This document shows, piece by piece, positions 6,802 through 23,497 of a DNA stretch of 23,497 bases (the first letter of the stretch is position 1; each line of letters opens with the position of its first letter). A program made the translations under genes and the position numbers. The DNA lies in the IMG/VR virus record IMGVR_UViG_3300039159_000820, positions 1 through 23,497 of that record. The stretch is one strand, 5' to 3'. Source of the stretch: a virus. The notes below the pieces were generated by a model. That model saw only the letters and a list, made by a program, of their open reading frames with translations. It searched no databases and had not been told where the DNA came from.

Positions 6802-7743
6802 ATGGCACGTGCGCAAGGCGCGCGGGCGGAGATGGCGCTTGCGTATGAGACGGTTTACGGCACCCCGCCGGTCAGCGGTTTCACGAAGATGCCCTTCGCC
6901 AGCACCTCGCTGGGATCGGAACAGCCACTTTTGAACAGCGAATTGCTCGGTTATGGCCGCGATCCTCTCGCGCCGATCAAGGACGCGGTGACGGCCGATG
7001 GCGATGTCATGGTGCCGATTGATGCCGAGGCCTTTGGGTTCTGGCTCAAGGCAGCCTTCGGCGATCCCACGACCACAGGTGCTGCGGCACCTTATACTCA
7101 TGAGTTTCAGTCTGGATCGTGGGTCCTACCCAGCATGTCGATCGAGACCGCCATGCCCGAGGTGCCGCGCTTTGCGATGTATTCCGGCTGCGTGCTGGAT
7201 CAGCTGTCTTGGCAGGTGCAACGCTCGGGCCTGCTGACCGCGACTGCCCGGCTGGTGGCGCAAGGCGAGACCATCGCTACAACAACTGGCGCGGGCACGC
7301 CTGCTGAACTGGCGCTGAAGCGGTTTGGCCATTTCAACGGCGCGATCAGTCGCAATGGTTCTGCGCTGGGCAATGTGGTCTCGGCAGAAATCACCTATGC
7401 CAACAACCTCGACCGGATCGAGACCATCCGCAGCGACGGCAAGATCGACGGGGCCGACCCGTCCATCGCAGCACTTACCGGCCGGATCGAGGTGCGCTTT
7501 GCCGACAGCACGCTGGTGACGCAGGCAATCAACGGCGATCCCTGCGAAATCAGCTTCGCCTATGTCCTGCCCTCAGGCGAAAGCTTCACCTTCACCGTTC
7601 ACGCCGTCTACCTGCCGCGCCCCCGGATCGAGATTTCCGGACCGCAGGGCGTGCAGGCCACGTTTGACTGGCAGGCCGCCAAGGCCGCCAGCCCCGCACG
7701 GATGTGCACCGCAATCCTGACCAATGATGTGGAGACCTATTGA
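6802..7743 (+). CDS. Major tail tube protein
   Basis: This 313-residue protein is a phage tail tube subunit, which stacks as hexameric rings to form the DNA conduit. It is beta-rich and contains conserved blocks: AYETVYGTPPVSGF, EQPLLNSELLGYGRDP, DGDVMVPIDAEAFGFWLKAAFGDP (conserved block about residues 67-90), YTHEFQSG and VSAEITYANNLDRIETIRSDGKI, which are typical of tail tube proteins in alphaproteobacterial siphoviruses. The start at 6802 follows AGGAG. The end overlaps the next start by one base (TGATG at 7741-7745). It lies just before the frameshifting chaperone and tape measure genes, as in lambda (V, G/GT, H). Confidence 0.88.
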   Translation: MARAQGARAEMALAYETVYGTPPVSGFTKMPFASTSLGSEQPLLNSELLGYGRDPLAPIKDAVTADGDVMVPIDAEAFGFWLKAAFGDPTTTGAAAPYTHEFQSGSWVLPSMSIETAMPEVPRFAMYSGCVLDQLSWQVQRSGLLTATARLVAQGETIATTTGAGTPAELALKRFGHFNGAISRNGSALGNVVSAEITYANNLDRIETIRSDGKIDGADPSIAALTGRIEVRFADSTLVTQAINGDPCEISFAYVLPSGESFTFTVHAVYLPRPRIEISGPQGVQATFDWQAAKAASPARMCTAILTNDVETY

Positions 7744-8180
7744 TGATCCGTCTGAACCTGACCGCTTCCCCCGAATGGCTGAATTTGGCCCCCGGCCTGC
7801 GTTTGCTGGTAGCGCCGCTGACCACCGCTTTGATGGTCTCGGCCCGCGCCGATCCAGCCATCGAGGCCACAACCGAAGGCGTCACCCAAGAGGAACTGGC
7901 GCTGGCCATGGCAAAAGCCGTCGCCCGTCGCGCCGTGCTGGATTGGGAGGGCGTCGGTGATGACAACGGCACAGTTGTGCACGTTTCGCCGGAAGGCATT
8001 GATGCCCTGCTGGAAATCTGGCCGGTCTTCGAGGCATTTCAGACCCAATACGTCGCACGTGGATTGATCCTGGACACGGAAAAAAACGTCTCCGCGCCCT
8101 CGCCGACTGGTCCTTCGGCGGTGGCGACCGGTACTGCGCGTCCTGCGCAGGCCCCTGCCCGGACTGCCCTGCAAGGCTGA
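7743..8180 (+). CDS. Tail assembly chaperone, zero-frame product (lambda gpG-like)
   Basis: This 145-residue protein lies between the tail tube and tape measure genes, the invariant position of tail-assembly chaperones that coat the tape measure before tube polymerisation. It is helical with a LDWEGVGDDNG loop and an EALLEIWPVFEAFQTQYVA-like helix (about residues 86-104), ending in an Ala/Pro/Thr-rich tail after residue 115. The ATG at 7743 overlaps the tail tube stop by one base. Codons 114-115 (AAA AAC), preceded by an A, form the heptamer A_AAA_AAC at 8081-8087, where a fraction of ribosomes should slip back one base and make a 226-residue gpGT-like fusion that continues to 8422. Confidence 0.8.
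   Translation: MIRLNLTASPEWLNLAPGLRLLVAPLTTALMVSARADPAIEATTEGVTQEELALAMAKAVARRAVLDWEGVGDDNGTVVHVSPEGIDALLEIWPVFEAFQTQYVARGLILDTEKNVSAPSPTGPSAVATGTARPAQAPARTALQG
8081..8120 (+). other. Programmed -1 ribosomal frameshift site with downstream hairpin
   Basis: AAAAAAC at 8081-8087 is in the exact phase for tandem -1 slippage (zero frame GAA AAA AAC). The -1 frame entered here stays open to TGA at 8420-8422. Thirteen bases downstream, CGCCGA (8101-8106) pairs perfectly with TCGGCG (8115-8120) around an 8-base loop, a candidate stimulatory stem. The frameshift between G and GT-type products is conserved in siphoviruses. Confidence 0.85.
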
Positions 8181-8422
8181 ACCGGCCGCAGACGCAGGAC
8201 GGCTGGCAAGTCTGGGATCTGGTCGGCCGCCTTGGTGGCCAGCTGCGCGTGATCCCCGGCGCAGTGCTCGGCTGGGACATGGGGGCCGCCTTGGCTCTCG
8301 CTAATGCGTTGGGCATCGACACTCTCATCGCCGCCGAACTGCTGCCCGAGATCGAGGCCGTGATGGTGCGCAAGCTGAACGAACAGATCGCAGATGGCAG
8401 CACCTCTGCCGTCAGTCCTTGA
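8087..8422 (+). CDS. Second-frame (GT-like) extension of the tail assembly chaperone
   Basis: The -1 frame from 8087 gives 111 residues: RLRALADWSFGGGDRYC, a tetracysteine motif CxxC-x3-CxxC (CASCAGPCPDC), then LNRPQTQDGWQVWDLVGRLG, an AALALANALGIDTLIAAELL helix and a C-terminal AVMVRKLNEQIADG. There is no usable ATG, GTG or TTG at its beginning, and only CTG stands where the zero-frame gene stops, so fusion by frameshift is the natural way to express it. The whole fusion (7743-8422) would be 226 residues, and the T-like part would recruit the tape measure. The last 11 bases overlap the 3' end of the antisense vapC-2 gene. Confidence 0.78.
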   Translation, partial: RLRALADWSFGGGDRYCASCAGPCPDCPARLNRPQTQDGWQVWDLVGRLGGQLRVIPGAVLGWDMGAALALANALGIDTLIAAELLPEIEAVMVRKLNEQIADGSTSAVSP

Positions 8423-8792
8423 ACTTCTCGATCAGGGTGACCCCCGGCAAACCTTCGAAATGCGCGTCGCAGGTGAGCAGCGTCGCCCCGCGCGCCCGCG
8501 CCGTGGCGAACATGATGGCATCCGCCGTTGCCAGTTTGTGGTCCCGCCAAGCATCTGCGGCGGCAAGGGCAATCTCGGTGTCGAGTGGCACGACCTGACA
8601 GACCTGTGTGAAGGCAATCACCTGATCCGCTTTATCCTCACCAACTTCGCGGGTCAGCCATTTTGCCAGTTCCAGCTGGACCATGGTCGGCACCAGCCAA
8701 TCTGCTTGTTCGGGCAGATGTTCAGCCACGCGCTCTCCGGTGGCCGATCCAATCAGCCACTCGATCCACGCCGACGTGTCGACAAGAACCAT
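8412..8792 (-). CDS. vapC: VapC-type PIN-domain toxin ribonuclease (module 3)
   Basis: This 126-residue PIN-domain protein has the four expected acidic residues: Asp5 in MVLVDTSAWIEW, Glu41 in VQLELAKWL, Asp91 in KLATADAIMFATA and Asp109 in LLTCDAHFEGLPGV. It is a different lineage from the module 1 toxin: the VDTSAWIEW start and TADAIM motif contrast with VDTNVLVRF and FADLMI there. It is translationally coupled to the upstream antitoxin (stop and start share one base). It lies antisense to the late operon, and its 3' end overlaps the last 11 bases of the chaperone frameshift product. It looks intact; its RNA target is unknown. Confidence 0.93.
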   Translation of the reverse strand: MVLVDTSAWIEWLIGSATGERVAEHLPEQADWLVPTMVQLELAKWLTREVGEDKADQVIAFTQVCQVVPLDTEIALAAADAWRDHKLATADAIMFATARARGATLLTCDAHFEGLPGVTLIEKFKD

Positions 8793-9007
8793 TAGAACCG
8801 GTCCACGCGATCACGGTATTCCGTAGCTGATGCTCCGCGTGCGATGCCCTTCAGCGCGTCCCGCTTCGGGACCGGCACCAGCAAAACCCCTGTGCCCTTT
8901 GGGATAAAGGCAAAGGTCAGCCCGGCCTCCCACGCTTGGGCCGTCCGGATCGCCTTGGGGATCGATATCTGAAACTTCGAGGACAGGGTTGCGGTTTCGG
9001 ACATCAT
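8792..9007 (-). CDS. vapB: AbrB-type antitoxin (VapB-like, module 3)
   Basis: This antitoxin of about 71 residues contains the AbrB-fold signature TATLSSKFQISIPKAIR, then FAFIPKGTGVLLVPVPKRD and a C-terminal toxin-binding tail ending YRDRVDRF. Three consecutive ATG codons (9010, 9007, 9004) precede SETATL. GGAGG at 9014-9018 on the minus strand is 3, 6 and 9 bases from them respectively, so 9007 or 9004 is preferred; a much longer in-frame reading reaching 9349 would be antisense to the tape measure gene and is rejected. The 64 bp between it and the tape measure start must hold the module's promoter; no convincing palindrome is visible there. Confidence 0.88.
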   Translation of the reverse strand: MMSETATLSSKFQISIPKAIRTAQAWEAGLTFAFIPKGTGVLLVPVPKRDALKGIARGASATEYRDRVDRF

Positions 9008-9074
9008 CATACGCCTCCATGATCGATACACATAACGTAAGACGCCAAAGCGGCAAAAGCAAGGAACTAGGGAA

Positions 9075-11516
9075 ATGGCCGAGAAACGCGTATCCGTCCG
9101 CCTCGTCGCGGAAGGCGGCCGCCAGGTGCGCGCCGAGCTGGAAGGTGTGGGTGATGCCGGGGCGCGGGGCTTCGGGCGGCTGTCGCGCGAGATGGACATG
9201 GCGAATGCGCGCGTTGCCGCTTTTGCCCGCCGCGCCACGCTTGCCGCAGCGGCTGCCACTGCGGCGCTGGCGGCGGCGGGGGTCGCGATGATCCGCTCCG
9301 GCCTGCAGACCGTCGATGCGCAGGCCAAGATGGCGCAATCTCTGGGCACGACCGTCGCCAGCCTTCAGGTACTGGAGCGGGCGGGCGATCTGGCGGGCGT
9401 GTCGATGGGTCAGGTCGAGCAAGCCACCGTACAACTGACGCGGCGGCTGAGCCAGGCGGCCGCCGGAACCGGACCAGCGGTCGATGCCTTGGACCGCCTG
9501 CACCTCTCGGCCGAGGCGTTGCAACGCCTGCCGCTGGATGCGCGCATCGCGGCCATTCAGGAGGCGCTGGGGCAATTTGTCCCCGAAGCCGAACGCGCGG
9601 CGGTGGCCTCGCAGCTCTTCGGCGACCGCGCGGCCTTGGTATTCACCCGGATCGACACGGCGACACTGCGCCAGGCGACCGAGGACGTTCTTGCCTTCGG
9701 GGTTGTCGTTTCCGAAGCTGACGCAGACCAGATCGAACGCACCAATGACGCGATTTCACGGTTGGGCCTGATCTGGCGCGGGCTGTCAAACCAGCTTGCT
9801 GTCGCCGCTGCGCCCTCCTTGGAAGCGGTCGCGAATGCCATGGCCGCTATTGCCAGCCGCACCGGGCCACTGGGCATCGCGATCAAGGCGCTCTTTGATA
9901 ACCTCGGACGGCTGACGACTTATGCCGCGACCTTCGCAGGTATCATGGCCGGGCGCTGGGTGGCTGGCATGGCGGTGGCTGCGCTCTCGGTGCGCGGGTT
10001 GGCCACCGCTCTGGTCTTCTTGCGTGGTGCGCTGATCCGCACCGGGATCGGGGCGCTGATCGTCGGCGCTGGCGAGCTGGTCTATCAGTTCACCAGGCTG
10101 GTCGCCGGAGCGGGCGGCGTGGGAGAGGCGTTCCGCCTAATGGGCGATCTCGCCAAAGAGGTCTGGTCGCGCATGGGGCTGGCGCTGGATGGGGCGTTGG
10201 CGCGCATGGCGGCAGGCTGGGAGGGGCAGAAGGCGGCGGGGCTTTCGGCGCTGGAAGGGACTGTCGCAGGCGTGGTGAACTTCGGCGACAGGACGGCGGC
10301 GATTTTCCAGGGGACCTATGACGCTGCCGTGGCGATCTGGGGCAGTCTGCCCGGTGCCATTGGTGACTTTGCGTTTCAGGCGGCGAACGGGCTGATTTCC
10401 GGCGTCGAGGCGATGCTGAATGGCGTGGTCACCCGCATCAACAGTTTCATCAACGGATTGAACGCCGCACTGGCCCTGCTGCCGGAATGGGCGGCCGGCG
10501 AGGGTGGCGTGCAGATCGGCACGCTGGATCCTGTGGGCCTGGCCCGGATCGGCAACCCGTTTGAAGGCGCGGCCGAAGCTGCCGGTGCCGCCGCAGCCGA
10601 TGCTTTCTCGGCGGCACTGTCGCGCACCTATCTGGAGCCGCCCGACCTCGGCCTTGGGGCCATGGCCGAGGATGCCCGCGCCCGGGCCGATGGATACCGC
10701 GAAGCGGCTGGCATGCTCGCCGATGCCGCAGGTCGGCCACTCGCCAGCTGGCAGGCGCTGCGCGATGCCGTGTCGGGCAGCGGGGCGGATGCCGAGGCCG
10801 CGCTGGCCGGTGCCACTGCTGCCGCCAGCGCGCTGGGCGATGAACTGGACGACACCGGCGGGGCCGCAGGTCGGGCCGGGGCAGCTGGTCGCGCGGCAGG
10901 GGCAGCGGCGGCCGAGGGCGCAGATACCGCCCTGACCGGCTGGGCGGCCGTCACAGCCGCACTCGCCGATTATGCCGCCAAGGCGCGCGAGATCGGCAGC
11001 GATATCGGACAGGCGCTAGTCGGCGCTTTTCAGAGCGCCGAGAACGCCGTGGCCACGTTCGTCAAGACCGGCAAGCTCGACTTTCGTGATCTGGTCACCT
11101 CGATGATCGCCGATCTGGCCAAGCTGGCGGCGCGGCGTTTCATCCTGGGCCCGATTGCCAATGCACTCTCTGGCGCGCTGGGCGGTGCGGGCGGACTGTT
11201 TGCCAACATCCTGCACGCCGGTGGCATGGTCGGATCACCGGGCCCGGGCCGCATGGTCCCCGCCATGGTCTTCGCTAATGCCCCGCGCATGCATTCCGGT
11301 GGCTGGGCAGGACTGCGCCCGGACGAGGTTCCGGCAATCCTGCAGCGCGGGGAACGGGTGCTGTCACGGCGAGAAGCGGCGGGCTATGGCCAATCCAGCG
11401 CGCCCACCGTCAACGTCACGATCATGTCGCGCGACGCCGAGAGCTTCCGACAATCGCGCACGCAGGTCGCGGCCGATATTGCCCGGGCGGTCTCGCTGGG
11501 TCGGAGGGGTATGTGA
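9075..11516 (+). CDS. Tail tape measure protein
   Basis: This 813-residue protein sets tail length and is ejected ahead of the DNA. The N-terminal 100 residues are alanine-rich helix (RVSVRLVAEGGRQVRAELEG, then an Ala-rich stretch near 50-75). The middle, about 270-340, contains hydrophobic segments (YAATFAGIMAGRWVAGMAVAA-like, RTGIGALIVGAGELVY) that could span the host membrane. Residues about 640-720 resemble the lambda tape-measure C-terminal domain (DIGQALVGAFQSAENAVATF, then GKLDFRDLVTSMIADLAKL). The end contains GGxVGSPGPGR-like Gly-rich turns and EVPAILQRGERVLSRREA, which are frequent in tape measures. The start has AAGGAA eight bases upstream. At 813 residues it implies a tail of roughly 120 nm by the usual ~1.5 Å-per-residue rule. 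Confidence 0.9.
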   Translation: MAEKRVSVRLVAEGGRQVRAELEGVGDAGARGFGRLSREMDMANARVAAFARRATLAAAAATAALAAAGVAMIRSGLQTVDAQAKMAQSLGTTVASLQVLERAGDLAGVSMGQVEQATVQLTRRLSQAAAGTGPAVDALDRLHLSAEALQRLPLDARIAAIQEALGQFVPEAERAAVASQLFGDRAALVFTRIDTATLRQATEDVLAFGVVVSEADADQIERTNDAISRLGLIWRGLSNQLAVAAAPSLEAVANAMAAIASRTGPLGIAIKALFDNLGRLTTYAATFAGIMAGRWVAGMAVAALSVRGLATALVFLRGALIRTGIGALIVGAGELVYQFTRLVAGAGGVGEAFRLMGDLAKEVWSRMGLALDGALARMAAGWEGQKAAGLSALEGTVAGVVNFGDRTAAIFQGTYDAAVAIWGSLPGAIGDFAFQAANGLISGVEAMLNGVVTRINSFINGLNAALALLPEWAAGEGGVQIGTLDPVGLARIGNPFEGAAEAAGAAAADAFSAALSRTYLEPPDLGLGAMAEDARARADGYREAAGMLADAAGRPLASWQALRDAVSGSGADAEAALAGATAAASALGDELDDTGGAAGRAGAAGRAAGAAAAEGADTALTGWAAVTAALADYAAKAREIGSDIGQALVGAFQSAENAVATFVKTGKLDFRDLVTSMIADLAKLAARRFILGPIANALSGALGGAGGLFANILHAGGMVGSPGPGRMVPAMVFANAPRMHSGGWAGLRPDEVPAILQRGERVLSRREAAGYGQSSAPTVNVTIMSRDAESFRQSRTQVAADIARAVSLGRRGM

Positions 11517-13093: not shown

Positions 13094-13978
13094 ATGAAAG
13101 CCCTCTCCCCTGCGCTGCAGAACCATCTCGATGATGGCACCACCACCTTGTCGTGGTGCTGGCGGATCAGCCGCGCCGACGGTTTGGCACTGGGCTTCAC
13201 CGATCATGATCGCGCCCTCGCTTTTGATGGCACCGACTTTGAACCTGATAGCGGATTTGCCGCCTCCGAAATCCGCGCTGGCTCCGATCTGGCTGTCGAT
13301 GCGCAGGACGCGAGTGGCGTGCTGACCTCGGACCGCATTACGGAAACCGACATCCTCGACGGGCGCTGGGACAATGCCGCTGTGGAGCTTTGGCGGGTGA
13401 ACTGGTCCGATACGAGCCAGCGGGTGTTGCTGCGCCGGGGTGCGGTCGGGCAAATCCGTCGTGGTCGCATGGCCTTTGTCGCAGAGGTCCGGTCCCTGGC
13501 GCATGTGCTGGGCCAGACCGTTGGGCGGACGTTTCAGGCGGGGTGTGATGCCCGTTTGGGCGATGCCCGCTGCCGGATCAATCTGGAAAACGCCATTTAT
13601 AAGGGCACGGGTGTGGTCAGTGACCTGTTGCGTGACCGGGCGTTTTTGGCCACCGGGTTATCCGGTTTTGACGCTGGATGGTTCACATCCGGCACAATCA
13701 CTTGGACCAGCGGCGCAAATGTCGGGCGCATAACTGAAGTGCTGTCCCATGGCTTGGCCGATGCCATCGCGACACTGACCCTCTTAGAAGCACCGGTACG
13801 CGCCATTGCCGAGGGCGATAGCTTCATCGCGCGCGCGGGCTGCGACAAGCGCATCGCGACCTGCGGCACCAAGTTCGCCAACACCGCCAACTTTCGCGGG
13901 TTCCCGAACATTTCCGGCCAAGACGCCGTGCTGCGCTATGCCAGCCAAGACGGCGGCCATGAAGGTGGCGTGCTGTGA
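13094..13978 (+). CDS. DUF2163 tail hub protein (GTA gp13-like)
   Basis: This 294-residue protein has the DUF2163/phage BR0599 layout: LQNHLDDGTTTLSWCWRI and LGFTDHDRALAFDG at the N-terminus, SGVLTSDRITETDILDGRWD in the middle, and the hallmark CDKRIATCGTKFANTANFRG near the C-terminus. In R. capsulatus GTA the homologue (gp13) forms the baseplate hub. Cys151, Cys160, Cys250 and Cys257 form two pairs that could coordinate an iron-sulfur cluster, as reported for lambda gpL; that is inference here. The start at 13094 is preceded by GTAAAG, weak as a ribosome-binding site and shared with the tacAT half-site motif. The end overlaps the peptidase start by four bases (GTGA). Confidence 0.92.
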   Translation: MKALSPALQNHLDDGTTTLSWCWRISRADGLALGFTDHDRALAFDGTDFEPDSGFAASEIRAGSDLAVDAQDASGVLTSDRITETDILDGRWDNAAVELWRVNWSDTSQRVLLRRGAVGQIRRGRMAFVAEVRSLAHVLGQTVGRTFQAGCDARLGDARCRINLENAIYKGTGVVSDLLRDRAFLATGLSGFDAGWFTSGTITWTSGANVGRITEVLSHGLADAIATLTLLEAPVRAIAEGDSFIARAGCDKRIATCGTKFANTANFRGFPNISGQDAVLRYASQDGGHEGGVL

Positions 13979-14440: not shown

Positions 14441-17400
14441 ATGGCGACTTTGGTTCTTGGTGCTGTCGGCTCCGCGCTCGGTGCGGGATTCGGCGGCGCG
14501 ATCCTCGGCTTTTCTGGCGCTGCCATCGGCGGCTTCGTCGGCTCGACCATCGGGTCGGTGGTCGACAGTTGGATCGTCTCGTCCCTAGCCCCGGCCCAAC
14601 GGATCGAGGGCGCGCGGCTCGACAGTCTGCGCATCACATCCTCGACTGAAGGTGCTGTGATCCCGCGCCTGTTCGGTCGGATGCGGATCGGCGGCAATAT
14701 CATCTGGGCCACGGATTTTCGCGAGGAGATCAAGACCACCAGTCAGGGCGGTGGGAAAGGCCTTGGTCCGAAGGTCAGAACCACGGAATACCTCTATTAT
14801 TCCTCCTTCGCCGTTGCACTCTGCGAGGGCAAGATCACCGGCATTGGCCGAATTTGGGCTGACGGCAAACCGATGGACATGAGTGGCGTCACTTGGCGCT
14901 GGTATCCAGGTGACGAAACACAAACCCCAGATCCGTTCATTTCGGCCAAGATGGGGGTGGTCAACACCCCCGCCTATCGTGGCACGGCTTATGTCGTCTT
15001 CGAAGAACTCGATCTGAGCGCCTTCGGCAACCGCCTGCCACAGATCAGTTTTGAGGTATTCCGGCCGCTGGCCGATGCTGACACCGCCGAGGGGTTGGTC
15101 AAGGCTGTGACGCTAATCCCGGCCTCGGGCGAATTCAGCTACGCGACCACACCCGTCAAAAAGACCAGCGGCGGCACAATCATCGGCTTTGATCAGACCT
15201 CGGGCGGCACAACGGTTGCCGAGAACCTGAATGCGATCATCGATACCGCCGATATTGTTGTGGCGCTGGATCGGCTGCAGGCCATGGCCCCGGCGGTGGA
15301 AAGTGTGTCGCTGGTGGTGGCCTGGTTCGGCGATGACCTGCACGCGGGCAGTTGCAAGGTACGTCCCGGTGTCGAGGTTGCCACCAAGACCACGACGCCA
15401 TCGTCCTGGTCCGTGAACGGTGTCGCACGCGCGGATGCCTTTCTGGTCAGCCGTGATGCTGAAGACCGTCCCGTCTATGGCGGCACGCCTGCCGACTTCG
15501 CAGTGGTGCAGGCGATCCAGGAGATGAAAGAGCGCGGGCTGCGGGTGACCTTCTATCCCTTCATCCTGATGGATGTGCCGCCCGGCAACACCAAGCCGAA
15601 CCCCTACAGCGCCAATGCTGCCACTTCTGGCCAGCCGACATTCCCCTGGCGCGGCCGGATCACCTGTTCGCCCGCCGCAGGCTTCGCAGGATCGGTGGAC
15701 AAGACCGCCACCGCTGCCACGCAGGTTGCAGCCCTGTTCGGCGCGGCGACACCCGCCAACTTCAGCGTGTCTGGCACCAATGTCAGCTGGACTGGCCCAG
15801 TCGGCGAATGGTCCCTGCGTCGGATGATCCTGCACTATGCGCATCTCTGCAAAGCCGCCGGGGGCGTCGACGCCTTCCTGATCGGCTCGGAAATGCCCGG
15901 TCTGACCACGATCCGCTCGGGCGCCAGCACCTATCCTGCCGTCACTGCCTTCAAATCACTCGCCGCTGATGTGCGCGCGATCCTCGGCGTGGGGCCCAAG
16001 ATCGGATACGCGTCCGACTGGTCGGAATACTTCGGCCATCATCCCAACGATGGGTCAGGCGACGTGTTCTTCCACCTCGACCCGCTCTGGTCGGATGCGA
16101 ATATCGACGTCATCGGCATCGATAACTACATGCCGCTGTCCGACTGGCGCGATGGTTTCGATCATGCCGACGCTGCGCTGGCACCGGCGATCTATGACCG
16201 GGCCTATCTGCAATCCAACATCACTGGTGGTGAAGGCTTTGACTGGTTCTATGCCAGCGCCTTGGACCGAACCGCGCAAAATCGCGCGCCGATCAGCGAT
16301 GGCGCGGCCGCGAGGCCATGGGTTTTCCGCTTCAAGGATCTGCGCGCTTGGTGGCAAAACCCGCATTTCAACCGCCCGGGTGGGGTGGAGAGCGGCACGC
16401 CGACGGCGTGGGTGCCGCAGTCCAAGCCAATCTGGTTCACCGAACTGGGGTGCCCGGCCATCGACCGCGGGACCAACCAGCCGAACGTCTTCTTTGATCC
16501 CAAATCGTCGGAGAGCTTCACACCCTACTTTTCACGCGGCTGGCGGGATGATGCGATCCAGCGCGCCTATCTCGAGGCGACCTATCTGTTCTGGGGCGCT
16601 GCGGCGAACAACCCGACCTCATCGGTCTATGGCAACCGGATGGTGCATGTGCCCGAATGCGCCGCCTGGACATGGGACGCCCGCCCCTATCCGTTCTTCC
16701 CCGGGCTGACCGAGGTCTGGACCGATGGTCCGAACTGGCGGCTCGGGCATTGGCTGACCGGGCGGCTGGGGGCTGTGTCCTTGGCCGCGCTGGTGCGGCA
16801 TCTGTGCCTGCGCGCTGGAATGCCCGAGGAATTGATCGACGTCTCCGGCCTCTGGGGCGCAGTCGAGGGCTACGTGATCTCGGCGATCGAGGCTCCGCGC
16901 GCCTCGATTTCCACGCTGGCCCGTCATTTCGGGTTCGATGCTGTCGAGAGCGAGGGGCGCATCAAGTTCCTGATGCGGGGGCGTATCGCCGGTCTGACCA
17001 TCACGCCCGACAGCATGGTCGCGTCATCGTCCGCGCAGGGCGACGTCATGGAACTGACCCGCGCGCAGGAAACCGAACTGCCCCATGCCCTGAAATGGCA
17101 GGTCGCGCGGGCGGACGAGGATTATGACGCGGCGCAGGTCGAGGCGCGGCGGATCACCGTCGACACCACCCGCATCGCCTCGGAAAGCTTCCCGATGGCG
17201 ATCCCGCCCGAAGAGGCCGAACGCCGCTGCCGTCGCGCCTTGATGGAAGCATGGGTGGGCCGGGAAAGTGCCGTTTTCCGCCTGCCGCCATCTCGTCTGG
17301 CGCTGGATCCCTGCGACGTGATCCTGCTCGACCACGACGGCCGCCTGACGGAAATGCGCCTCGTGTCCATTGCGGACTCCGACCTGCGCAGCGTCGACGC

Positions 17401-18439
17401 GGTGCGTCAGGACCGGTCCGACTATGACCTGCCACCGGGAGAACCCCGCCCCGCGACACTGTCGACGCCGACAGTGTTTGGCATGCCGGATGTGGTCCTG
17501 CTCGACCTGCCGCAGCTGCGCGAGGACCAGCCCGCGCACCGTCCGTTTGTCGCGGCCCATGCCAAACCGTGGCCCGGCGAAATCGCAGTCTACCGCAGCG
17601 CCGCGACGGACGGCTTTGCCCTGCTGACCACGTCTCAGTCACGGGCGCGCATGGGCGTTCTGGCGGCGGACTTCTTTGCCGGGCCGGTGTCGCGCTTCGA
17701 TCTGGGCAATGCGCTGGTCGTCGATCTGTTCTCTGGCACGCTGGAGAGCATCACGGACATCACGCTGCTGGGTGGGGCCAATGCGCTGGCCATTGAGGCT
17801 GCTGCTGGGCAGTGGGAGATCGTCCAGGCAGGCGCCGCCGAGTTGATCGCACCCGGGCGGTATAGGCTGACCCGCCTGCTGCGCGGCCAGCGTGGAACCG
17901 AAGGGGCGATGGTCAGCATGGTGCCGACCGGCGCTCGAGTGGTCGTGCTGGATGCGACCTTGGCTACCCTGCCAATTTCCGAAGCCGACCTCGGCCTGCC
18001 GTGGAACTGGCGCATCGGCCCGGCCTCTCGCCCAGTCAGCGACCAGACCTTTGTTGCTACCAGCTTCACCCCCGAGGGCGCTGGGCTGCAGCCCTTCTCT
18101 GTGGTCCATGTCGAACAGCCTTGGCGATTTTCTCGCAGCCCCGGCGATTTGACGATCCGCTGGACGCGCCGATCGCGGTCATTGGCCGCCGACACCTGGG
18201 GCCTAGGCGACGTGCCTTTGGCGGAAGACCGTGAAGCCTATGAGGTGGAAATCCTCAACGGAGCAACAGTCACGAGAACCTTACAAGTTGCCACCACCAG
18301 CGCCCTCTACACCGCCGCCCAGCAGACCACCGATTGGGGCGCACCCCTCGGCCCCAGCCAATCCCTCGCCATCCGCATCTACCAGCTTTCGGCTCTGATC
18401 GGTCGGGGCGCTGGGCGATCCGTCACACTCACGTTCTGA
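14441..18439 (+). CDS. Baseplate megatron: GTA TIM-barrel / phage tail domain protein (GTA gp15-like)
   Basis: This 1332-residue protein is homologous to GTA gp15, the central tail-tip protein that reaches the cell surface. The N-terminus is a Gly/Ala-rich hydrophobic segment (about residues 5-40) that could enter membranes. LRITSSTEGAVIPRLFGRMR and TEYLYYSSFAVALCEGKI (about 63-135) are typical of gpJ/gp15 tail proteins. Residues about 465-720 form the glycoside-hydrolase-like TIM barrel, with candidate acidic residues in FLIGSEMPG and WFTELGCPAIDRG. A phage tail domain follows (MELTRAQETELPHALKW near 870), then a C-terminal beta-rich domain containing RLTRLLRGQRGTEGAM. Size matches GTA gp15 (about 1300). 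It starts ten bases after the peptidase stop, with a weak ribosome-binding site. Confidence 0.93.
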   Translation: MATLVLGAVGSALGAGFGGAILGFSGAAIGGFVGSTIGSVVDSWIVSSLAPAQRIEGARLDSLRITSSTEGAVIPRLFGRMRIGGNIIWATDFREEIKTTSQGGGKGLGPKVRTTEYLYYSSFAVALCEGKITGIGRIWADGKPMDMSGVTWRWYPGDETQTPDPFISAKMGVVNTPAYRGTAYVVFEELDLSAFGNRLPQISFEVFRPLADADTAEGLVKAVTLIPASGEFSYATTPVKKTSGGTIIGFDQTSGGTTVAENLNAIIDTADIVVALDRLQAMAPAVESVSLVVAWFGDDLHAGSCKVRPGVEVATKTTTPSSWSVNGVARADAFLVSRDAEDRPVYGGTPADFAVVQAIQEMKERGLRVTFYPFILMDVPPGNTKPNPYSANAATSGQPTFPWRGRITCSPAAGFAGSVDKTATAATQVAALFGAATPANFSVSGTNVSWTGPVGEWSLRRMILHYAHLCKAAGGVDAFLIGSEMPGLTTIRSGASTYPAVTAFKSLAADVRAILGVGPKIGYASDWSEYFGHHPNDGSGDVFFHLDPLWSDANIDVIGIDNYMPLSDWRDGFDHADAALAPAIYDRAYLQSNITGGEGFDWFYASALDRTAQNRAPISDGAAARPWVFRFKDLRAWWQNPHFNRPGGVESGTPTAWVPQSKPIWFTELGCPAIDRGTNQPNVFFDPKSSESFTPYFSRGWRDDAIQRAYLEATYLFWGAAANNPTSSVYGNRMVHVPECAAWTWDARPYPFFPGLTEVWTDGPNWRLGHWLTGRLGAVSLAALVRHLCLRAGMPEELIDVSGLWGAVEGYVISAIEAPRASISTLARHFGFDAVESEGRIKFLMRGRIAGLTITPDSMVASSSAQGDVMELTRAQETELPHALKWQVARADEDYDAAQVEARRITVDTTRIASESFPMAIPPEEAERRCRRALMEAWVGRESAVFRLPPSRLALDPCDVILLDHDGRLTEMRLVSIADSDLRSVDAVRQDRSDYDLPPGEPRPATLSTPTVFGMPDVVLLDLPQLREDQPAHRPFVAAHAKPWPGEIAVYRSAATDGFALLTTSQSRARMGVLAADFFAGPVSRFDLGNALVVDLFSGTLESITDITLLGGANALAIEAAAGQWEIVQAGAAELIAPGRYRLTRLLRGQRGTEGAMVSMVPTGARVVVLDATLATLPISEADLGLPWNWRIGPASRPVSDQTFVATSFTPEGAGLQPFSVVHVEQPWRFSRSPGDLTIRWTRRSRSLAADTWGLGDVPLAEDREAYEVEILNGATVTRTLQVATTSALYTAAQQTTDWGAPLGPSQSLAIRIYQLSALIGRGAGRSVTLTF

Positions 18440-22369: not shown

Positions 22370-23497
22370 TCAGGGCAAGCCAGAGAGCGACTTTAAAGCG
22401 CGCATGTAGCGATCGATCACAATCGTTTCGTCAAACTGGCGTTCCATCTTTGACCGGCCCATCTGCCCCATTTGCACCCGCGCGATCTGGGGCAAATCCA
22501 TCATTTGGCGCATCTTGTCAGCAAGGTCGTCAGCATCCTGAGAACGGCAAAGAAAGCCGGTCTGGCCGTTATCAACGGCCTCGCGGCAGCCCACAGCATC
22601 GGTAGTGATGATCGGCTGCGCCATCGCGGCTGCTTCCAGCAGCGATCGCGGCGTGCCTTCACGGTAGCTCGGCAGCACGACACAGTCGCAGTCTGCCAGA
22701 TGCGGGCGCACATCCTCCGCCGCGCCCAGATAGCGGACAAGCCCCTGTGCTTCCCAGGCCGCGACCGTCTCGGGCGGGATTGCGGTCGGGTTGTCAACCC
22801 CGAGAAACCCGAGGAGATCGCATTCCACATCCCGGCAATCCGCCTTGAGTTTCCGGGCCGCTTCAACATATTCCCCGACACCCTTGTCCCACAGCATCCG
22901 CGCGACCAGTAGGAAACGGAAAGGCGCAGTGCCGTCACGTTCGGCCACGGGATGCGGCGAGAACCGCGCAAGATCCACGCCGGAGCCGGGCAAAATCTGT
23001 GTTTTCCCCGCCTGCACCAGCCCAAGTTTGACAAACAATTCGTGATCATCCGGGTTCTGGAAAAAAACTGTCCCCGCATTTTTCAACGCTTGACGATACA
23101 GAATTCTGACCACGCGCGTGAGCCAACTCTCGCGGACAAACGCCGTACCAAGGCCCGTAATATTGTGAACCGATGGAACTGCCAACATTCGGCAGGCCAG
23201 CCCGCCATAGATATTGGGCTTTATCGTGAAGCCCAAGAAGACAGCGGGGCGCTCCTGACGGAGCAGCCGGAAAAGGCGGATGAAAAGTAGAAAATCGCTC
23301 GCCGGATTGGTTCCCTTGTTGTCCACCAGCAATGGCACGAAACGAACACCTGCCGCCTCGATCCGTGCGGAATCGGTGCCAGGAGGAGCAACTGCGATCA
23401 CCTCGAATCCCGCTTCTTGCAGAGAACGGGTCAGGTTCATACGAAAATTCGCCAGATACCATGCAGAGTTTGCAACAAGCGCAACTTTTGCTTTCAT
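22370..23497 (-). CDS. GT4-family glycosyltransferase for surface polysaccharide (PglA-like)
   Basis: This 375-residue protein has the GT-B fold of family 4: an N-terminal acceptor domain starting KAKVALVANSAWYLANFRMN with FVPLLVDNKGTNPASD and TIKPNIYGGLACR, and a C-terminal nucleotide-sugar domain with ILPGSGVDLARFSP, RFLLVARMLWDKGVGEYVEA and the REGTPRSLLEAAAMAQPIIT block holding the EX7E-type glutamates. These enzymes transfer a sugar to an undecaprenyl-linked acceptor in O-antigen, capsule or exopolysaccharide synthesis at the inner membrane. The ATG is the last codon of the window; its promoter and neighbours are not visible. It is on the strand opposite to the phage and is most likely a host gene flanking the prophage, though a phage-carried gene cannot be excluded. 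Confidence 0.9.
   Translation of the reverse strand: MKAKVALVANSAWYLANFRMNLTRSLQEAGFEVIAVAPPGTDSARIEAAGVRFVPLLVDNKGTNPASDFLLFIRLFRLLRQERPAVFLGFTIKPNIYGGLACRMLAVPSVHNITGLGTAFVRESWLTRVVRILYRQALKNAGTVFFQNPDDHELFVKLGLVQAGKTQILPGSGVDLARFSPHPVAERDGTAPFRFLLVARMLWDKGVGEYVEAARKLKADCRDVECDLLGFLGVDNPTAIPPETVAAWEAQGLVRYLGAAEDVRPHLADCDCVVLPSYREGTPRSLLEAAAMAQPIITTDAVGCREAVDNGQTGFLCRSQDADDLADKMRQMMDLPQIARVQMGQMGRSKMERQFDETIVIDRYMRALKSLSGLP

Follow-up and report, generated by a model that had tools for sequence, protein, structure and literature searches.

The window, that is, the whole stretch of DNA analyzed here, is a virus record of 23,497 bases and probably a fragment; its features are listed in Table 1. 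Between the tail tube and tape measure genes, the position characteristic of the lambda G/GT type, lies a tail assembly chaperone gene with a predicted continuation in another frame. The chaperone start overlaps the stop of the tail tube gene in the sequence TGATG. Its 0-frame product belongs to the phrog_313 family of tail assembly chaperones (1.4e-23), and in a viral structure library its predicted structure finds its matches among tail assembly chaperones. The chaperone alone had no match in the PDB by sequence, and by fold neither the model of the 0-frame product nor that of the -1 domain had a PDB match below E 1.

Table 1. Features of the window, with their positions, strands and the evidence or remarks that go with them
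Feature	Position	Strand	Evidence or remark
Tail tube gene (upstream neighbor)	6802..7743	+	Pfam Phage_tube_2, 6.8e-58
Tail assembly chaperone (gpG-like), 145 aa	7743..8180	+	phrog_313; predicted fold
Slippery heptamer A_AAA_AAC	8081..8087	+	Phase from ATG at 7743; kept in relatives
-1 continuation (gpT-like domain)	8087..8422	+	111 codons + stop; DUF7697 in C-terminal half
Predicted stem-loop	8095..8126	+	8095-8106 pairs with 8115-8126; 8-nt loop; 7-nt spacer after heptamer; MFE fold
Four-cysteine motif CxxC-x3-CxxC	8135..8167	+	C19, C22, C26, C29 counted from 8081
Internal GTG, -1 frame	8249..8251	+	DUF7697/phrog_11212 effectively begin there; probably not the true start
VapC-like PIN-domain gene	8412-8792	minus	Between T-like domain and tape measure gene
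AbrB/MazE-like antitoxin gene	8792-9052	minus	Between T-like domain and tape measure gene
Tape measure gene (downstream neighbor)	9075..11516	+	phrog_8462, 1.5e-216
Baseplate hub protein	13094-13978		TIGR02218; related to gene transfer agent baseplate genes
'Megatron' protein	14441-18439		NF048004; related to gene transfer agent baseplate genes

Counted from the chaperone's ATG, the codons GAA (8079), AAA (8082) and AAC (8085) are residues 113 to 115, which confirms the claim of the original prediction that AAAAAAC stands here in the exact phase for -1 slippage. Once shifted, translation would resume with CGT (8087) in a frame that is open over 8087-8419 and ends at the stop 8420-8422; the 111 additional codons proposed at the outset are therefore present, and the predicted fusion has 226 residues (115 + 111). 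This second frame is protein-coding, and it had been said to lack a start of its own. That holds for the full domain: the sole open reading frame of at least 20 residues that begins with ATG, GTG or TTG and ends at 8422 starts at the GTG at 8249 and encodes 57 residues. As a bare word, the heptamer is not beyond chance in the window, where it was found twice against 0.77 copies expected, two or more copies being present in 19 of 100 shuffles; the case therefore rests on comparison with relatives.

Canonical XXXYYYZ heptamers occur at the same codon in 273 of 276 distinct relatives, a set that reaches down to about 30% identity with the window's second domain and that, given the relatedness of its members, does not stand for 276 independent events. 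Conservation of the heptamer in homologues had been proposed as a check, and it is thus borne out. Among the 161 close relatives first examined, which come from many separate contigs, the second frame lies at the same -1 offset in every one and 160 carry GAAAAAAAC; sequenced isolates show the same layout as the window. The heptamer is replaced by G_GGA_AAC in divergent lineages (Rhodobacter RcC phages and several metagenome groups), and the slip site is A_AAA_AAA in Synechococcus and Nostoc phages. Such swaps alter the residues in both frames yet keep the site slippery, which is hard to explain other than by selection for slippage. Nor does codon preference account for the AAA kept at the slip site, since most lysine codons in the upstream part of the gene are AAG (298, versus 96 AAA). 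The non-canonical exceptions carry GAAGAAAAC (L089/L253) or GGGACAC (L400), or lie beside masked bases (L227). Two members of the 273, L185 and L229, have respectively one A fewer and one A more, so that the upstream frame enters differently. With eight A instead of seven, L229 (Roseisalinus antarcticus) encodes the chaperone and the T-like domain as a single open reading frame, which is either a natural fusion in one frame or a sequencing error in the homopolymer.

The pattern of substitution changes frame at the same point. In 231 close relatives, variability upstream of the heptamer is concentrated at third positions of the 0 frame (mean entropy 1.01, versus 0.41 and 0.31 at the other two positions), while downstream of it the third positions of the -1 frame are the most variable (0.83, versus 0.52 and 0.42); the heptamer itself is nearly invariant (0.02 or less). 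Structure prediction, for which alignments were rebuilt after leaving out the rows from annotated phage records, points the same way. Confidence in the 0-frame model collapses after residue 114, where the slip site lies, and is below 50 for residues 115 to 135, whereas the AlphaFold2 model of the -1 domain reaches a pLDDT of 90.8 and a pTM of 0.81. In two relatives, L405 and L408, the 0 frame stops about one codon past a G_GGA_AAC heptamer and the -1 domain runs on; a long disordered 0-frame tail like that of the window is therefore not required.

A perfect 6-bp stem at 8101-8120 had been noticed downstream of the heptamer. Its pairs (8101-8106 with 8115-8120) are retained in our fold, but the stem is longer and starts nearer the heptamer, at 8095; it comprises 12 positions, of which one is mismatched in the window copy (8099C/8122T). 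Across 179 unique sequences, 94.9% of the cells form standard pairs in this register, compared to 41-57% in registers slid by 1 to 4 bases, and in a divergent group resembling L165 the register is shifted by two bases, with 86% paired. A few of the pairs are swapped in both arms (C-G to G-C at 8095-8126), and substitutions at most third positions of the 5' arm are mainly exchanges of C and T, each of which can pair with G. Compared with synonymous recodings of the -1 frame, the stem has a mean z of -2.0 over 82 sequences, although GC-rich dual coding limits how far this conservation can be pressed. The window's own stem (z -0.91) found no support as a significant signal when taken alone; only the family shows one. 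These comparisons support a putative stimulatory stem at the level of the family, of which the window would hold a weaker copy. A search of Rfam gave no match.

The domain encoded by the -1 frame has no convincing counterpart in the PDB by sequence or by fold; the family profiles gave only marginal PDB matches by sequence, the best being to designed proteins (E 0.001). Its C-terminal half is recognized by DUF7697 (PF24752; residues 57-105, 1.7e-27, 95.5 bits against a cut-off of 27) and by phrog_11212 (residues 55-105, 6.3e-29). Unlike the window's domain, these families do not include the first 54-56 residues, among them the cysteine motif. Both begin about where the internal GTG lies, and they were probably built from truncated gene calls. 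A further family, DUF1799 (PF08809), matches weakly in 25 of 46 diverse -1 domains (best 8.3e-05), a relation that rests on the relatives, as the window's own protein has no match to it at E 1. Phage VarioGold has a DUF1799 gene after its tail assembly chaperone gene and before its tape measure gene (PMC9658991).

The four cysteines are invariant in the 46 diverse sequences, with a spacing that varies in divergent members. Their paired CxxC arrangement is that of zinc modules, and this spacing suggests that they probably form a zinc site. Against zinc families, the window protein had no match and one relative had only a marginal zinc-ribbon match; as far as titles and the opening lines of abstracts reveal, no paper evidently describes zinc in a tail chaperone. 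We propose, at about even odds, that the frameshift appends a metal-binding module: the cysteines would constitute a zinc site without which the T-like domain could not recruit tail tube subunits, and DUF7697 would then be a domain fragment created by gene callers that start at the internal GTG.

Our main reading, to which we give a probability of roughly 0.94, is that 8081-8087 is a programmed -1 ribosomal frameshift site of the lambda G/GT type. It draws on the phase of the heptamer, the open frames, the conservation of both site and frame, the foldability of the domain and the family membership of the 0-frame product. Weighing against it are the unremarkable stability of the window's own stem, the altered heptamer in a few relatives, the lack of a solved structure resembling the T-like domain, and that domain's weak tie, through DUF1799, to known T-like families. 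There is only a slight chance that the second frame is instead a separate gene with a start of its own, for example the GTG at 8249, and no frameshift. Such a gene would fit the extent of DUF7697 and phrog_11212, which are confined to what lies beyond about residue 55, as well as cyanophage records in which a short separate open reading frame is annotated for the second half. Strong conservation begins at the slip site, however, 56 codons before that GTG, and takes in the four invariant cysteines; moreover, the residue at the GTG position varies among relatives, most of which lack any usual start codon upstream. We reject an independent start because conservation precedes the only internal one and most relatives have no start codon to offer. 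A homologue with its own start and no heptamer, named in the original prediction as the refuting case, was looked for among the 276 relatives and none was found.

Production of the fusion by transcriptional rather than ribosomal slippage is highly improbable. The site consists of seven consecutive A, a length near that required for polymerase slippage, but in divergent relatives the same codon carries GGGAAAC, a word without any long A run, and in others the run is limited to six A; the conserved downstream stem, too, suits ribosomal frameshifting. It is the use of GGGAAAC or of a six-A run by relatives that leads us to disfavor it. As for a single gene split by an assembly or sequencing error, or a frameshifted gene in decay, the homopolymeric nature of the site and the different run lengths in L229 and L185 are what one would expect from it. 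The probability of this last explanation is nonetheless negligible, because it is contradicted by the independent contigs of the 161 relatives, all with the same -1 offset, and by the isolate genomes with the same layout.

A programmed ribosomal frameshift at this site might operate as follows. We infer that slippage would occur with an efficiency such that most ribosomes read through 7743-8180 and yield the 145-residue chaperone, while some pause on A_AAA_AAC, presumably aided by the stem-loop 7 nt downstream. In the latter, the tRNAs for AAA and AAC would slip back by one base and pair anew with AAA AAA. Translation, resumed at CGT in the -1 frame and continued to 8422, would then produce the 226-residue fusion, whose compact C-terminal domain bears four cysteines. 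If lambda is a guide, the T part may bring tail tube subunits to the tape measure protein, which would itself be bound by the G part.

In the window, the PIN-domain and antitoxin genes separate the T-like domain from the tape measure gene. A PIN gene is present at the same place in 21 of 254 relatives, whereas in 166 of them no gene intervenes and the tape measure gene is estimated to start about 7 nt ahead of the T stop; the pair therefore looks like an inserted moron. Relatives that reside in cellular genomes are mostly in Rhodobacterales, and a host of this order is therefore likely for the window virus. At the far end of the window, a glycosyltransferase-like open reading frame on the minus strand (22370-23497) reaches the end of the record and scores under every NCBIfam cut-off; it may belong either to the phage, as an accessory gene, or to host DNA at the flank. 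The second AAAAAAC of the window (23062-23068) lies opposite this gene.

The closest described systems are the RcC-cluster phages of Rhodobacter capsulatus (RcOceanus, RcKemmy and RcKai), which have the chaperone pair at the same gene position as the window, with 36-40% identity in the 0-frame protein and 54-55% in the -1 domain. They differ from the window in their heptamer (G_GGA_AAC instead of A_AAA_AAC) and in a tape measure start that overlaps the end of the fusion, with no PIN/antitoxin pair between the two. In these three phages the fusion is already annotated as a joined CDS, and the paper describing RcC phages considers a frameshift to be usual for the chaperone genes of this group (PMC8601537). 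The expectation that annotation would miss the second half thus does not always hold: the RcC phages have it in their joined CDS, and DUF7697 and phrog_11212 cover its C-terminal half alone. The reading of the locus as a gpGT-like chaperone fusion stands, supported by gene position, phrog_313, fold, conservation of the second frame and the joined CDS of the Rhodobacter phages.

Among tailed phages the G/GT frameshift is conserved widely, and in lambda, as in the window, a chaperone gene between the tail tube and tape measure genes carries near the end of its first frame a -1 heptamer that appends a second domain (PMC5009743); the likeness is known here from gene position and frameshift layout. 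The frameshift of the window is in this respect ordinary, an instance of a well-known arrangement already annotated in related Rhodobacter phages. Less expected, in comparison with lambda gpG/gpGT, is that the appended domain, for which no counterpart was found among solved structures, has four invariant cysteines. The analysis suggests that DUF7697 and phrog_11212 represent the end of a frameshift-encoded domain, and the four-cysteine motif of the T-like domain offers a specific feature on which ideas about the working of such fusions can be tested.
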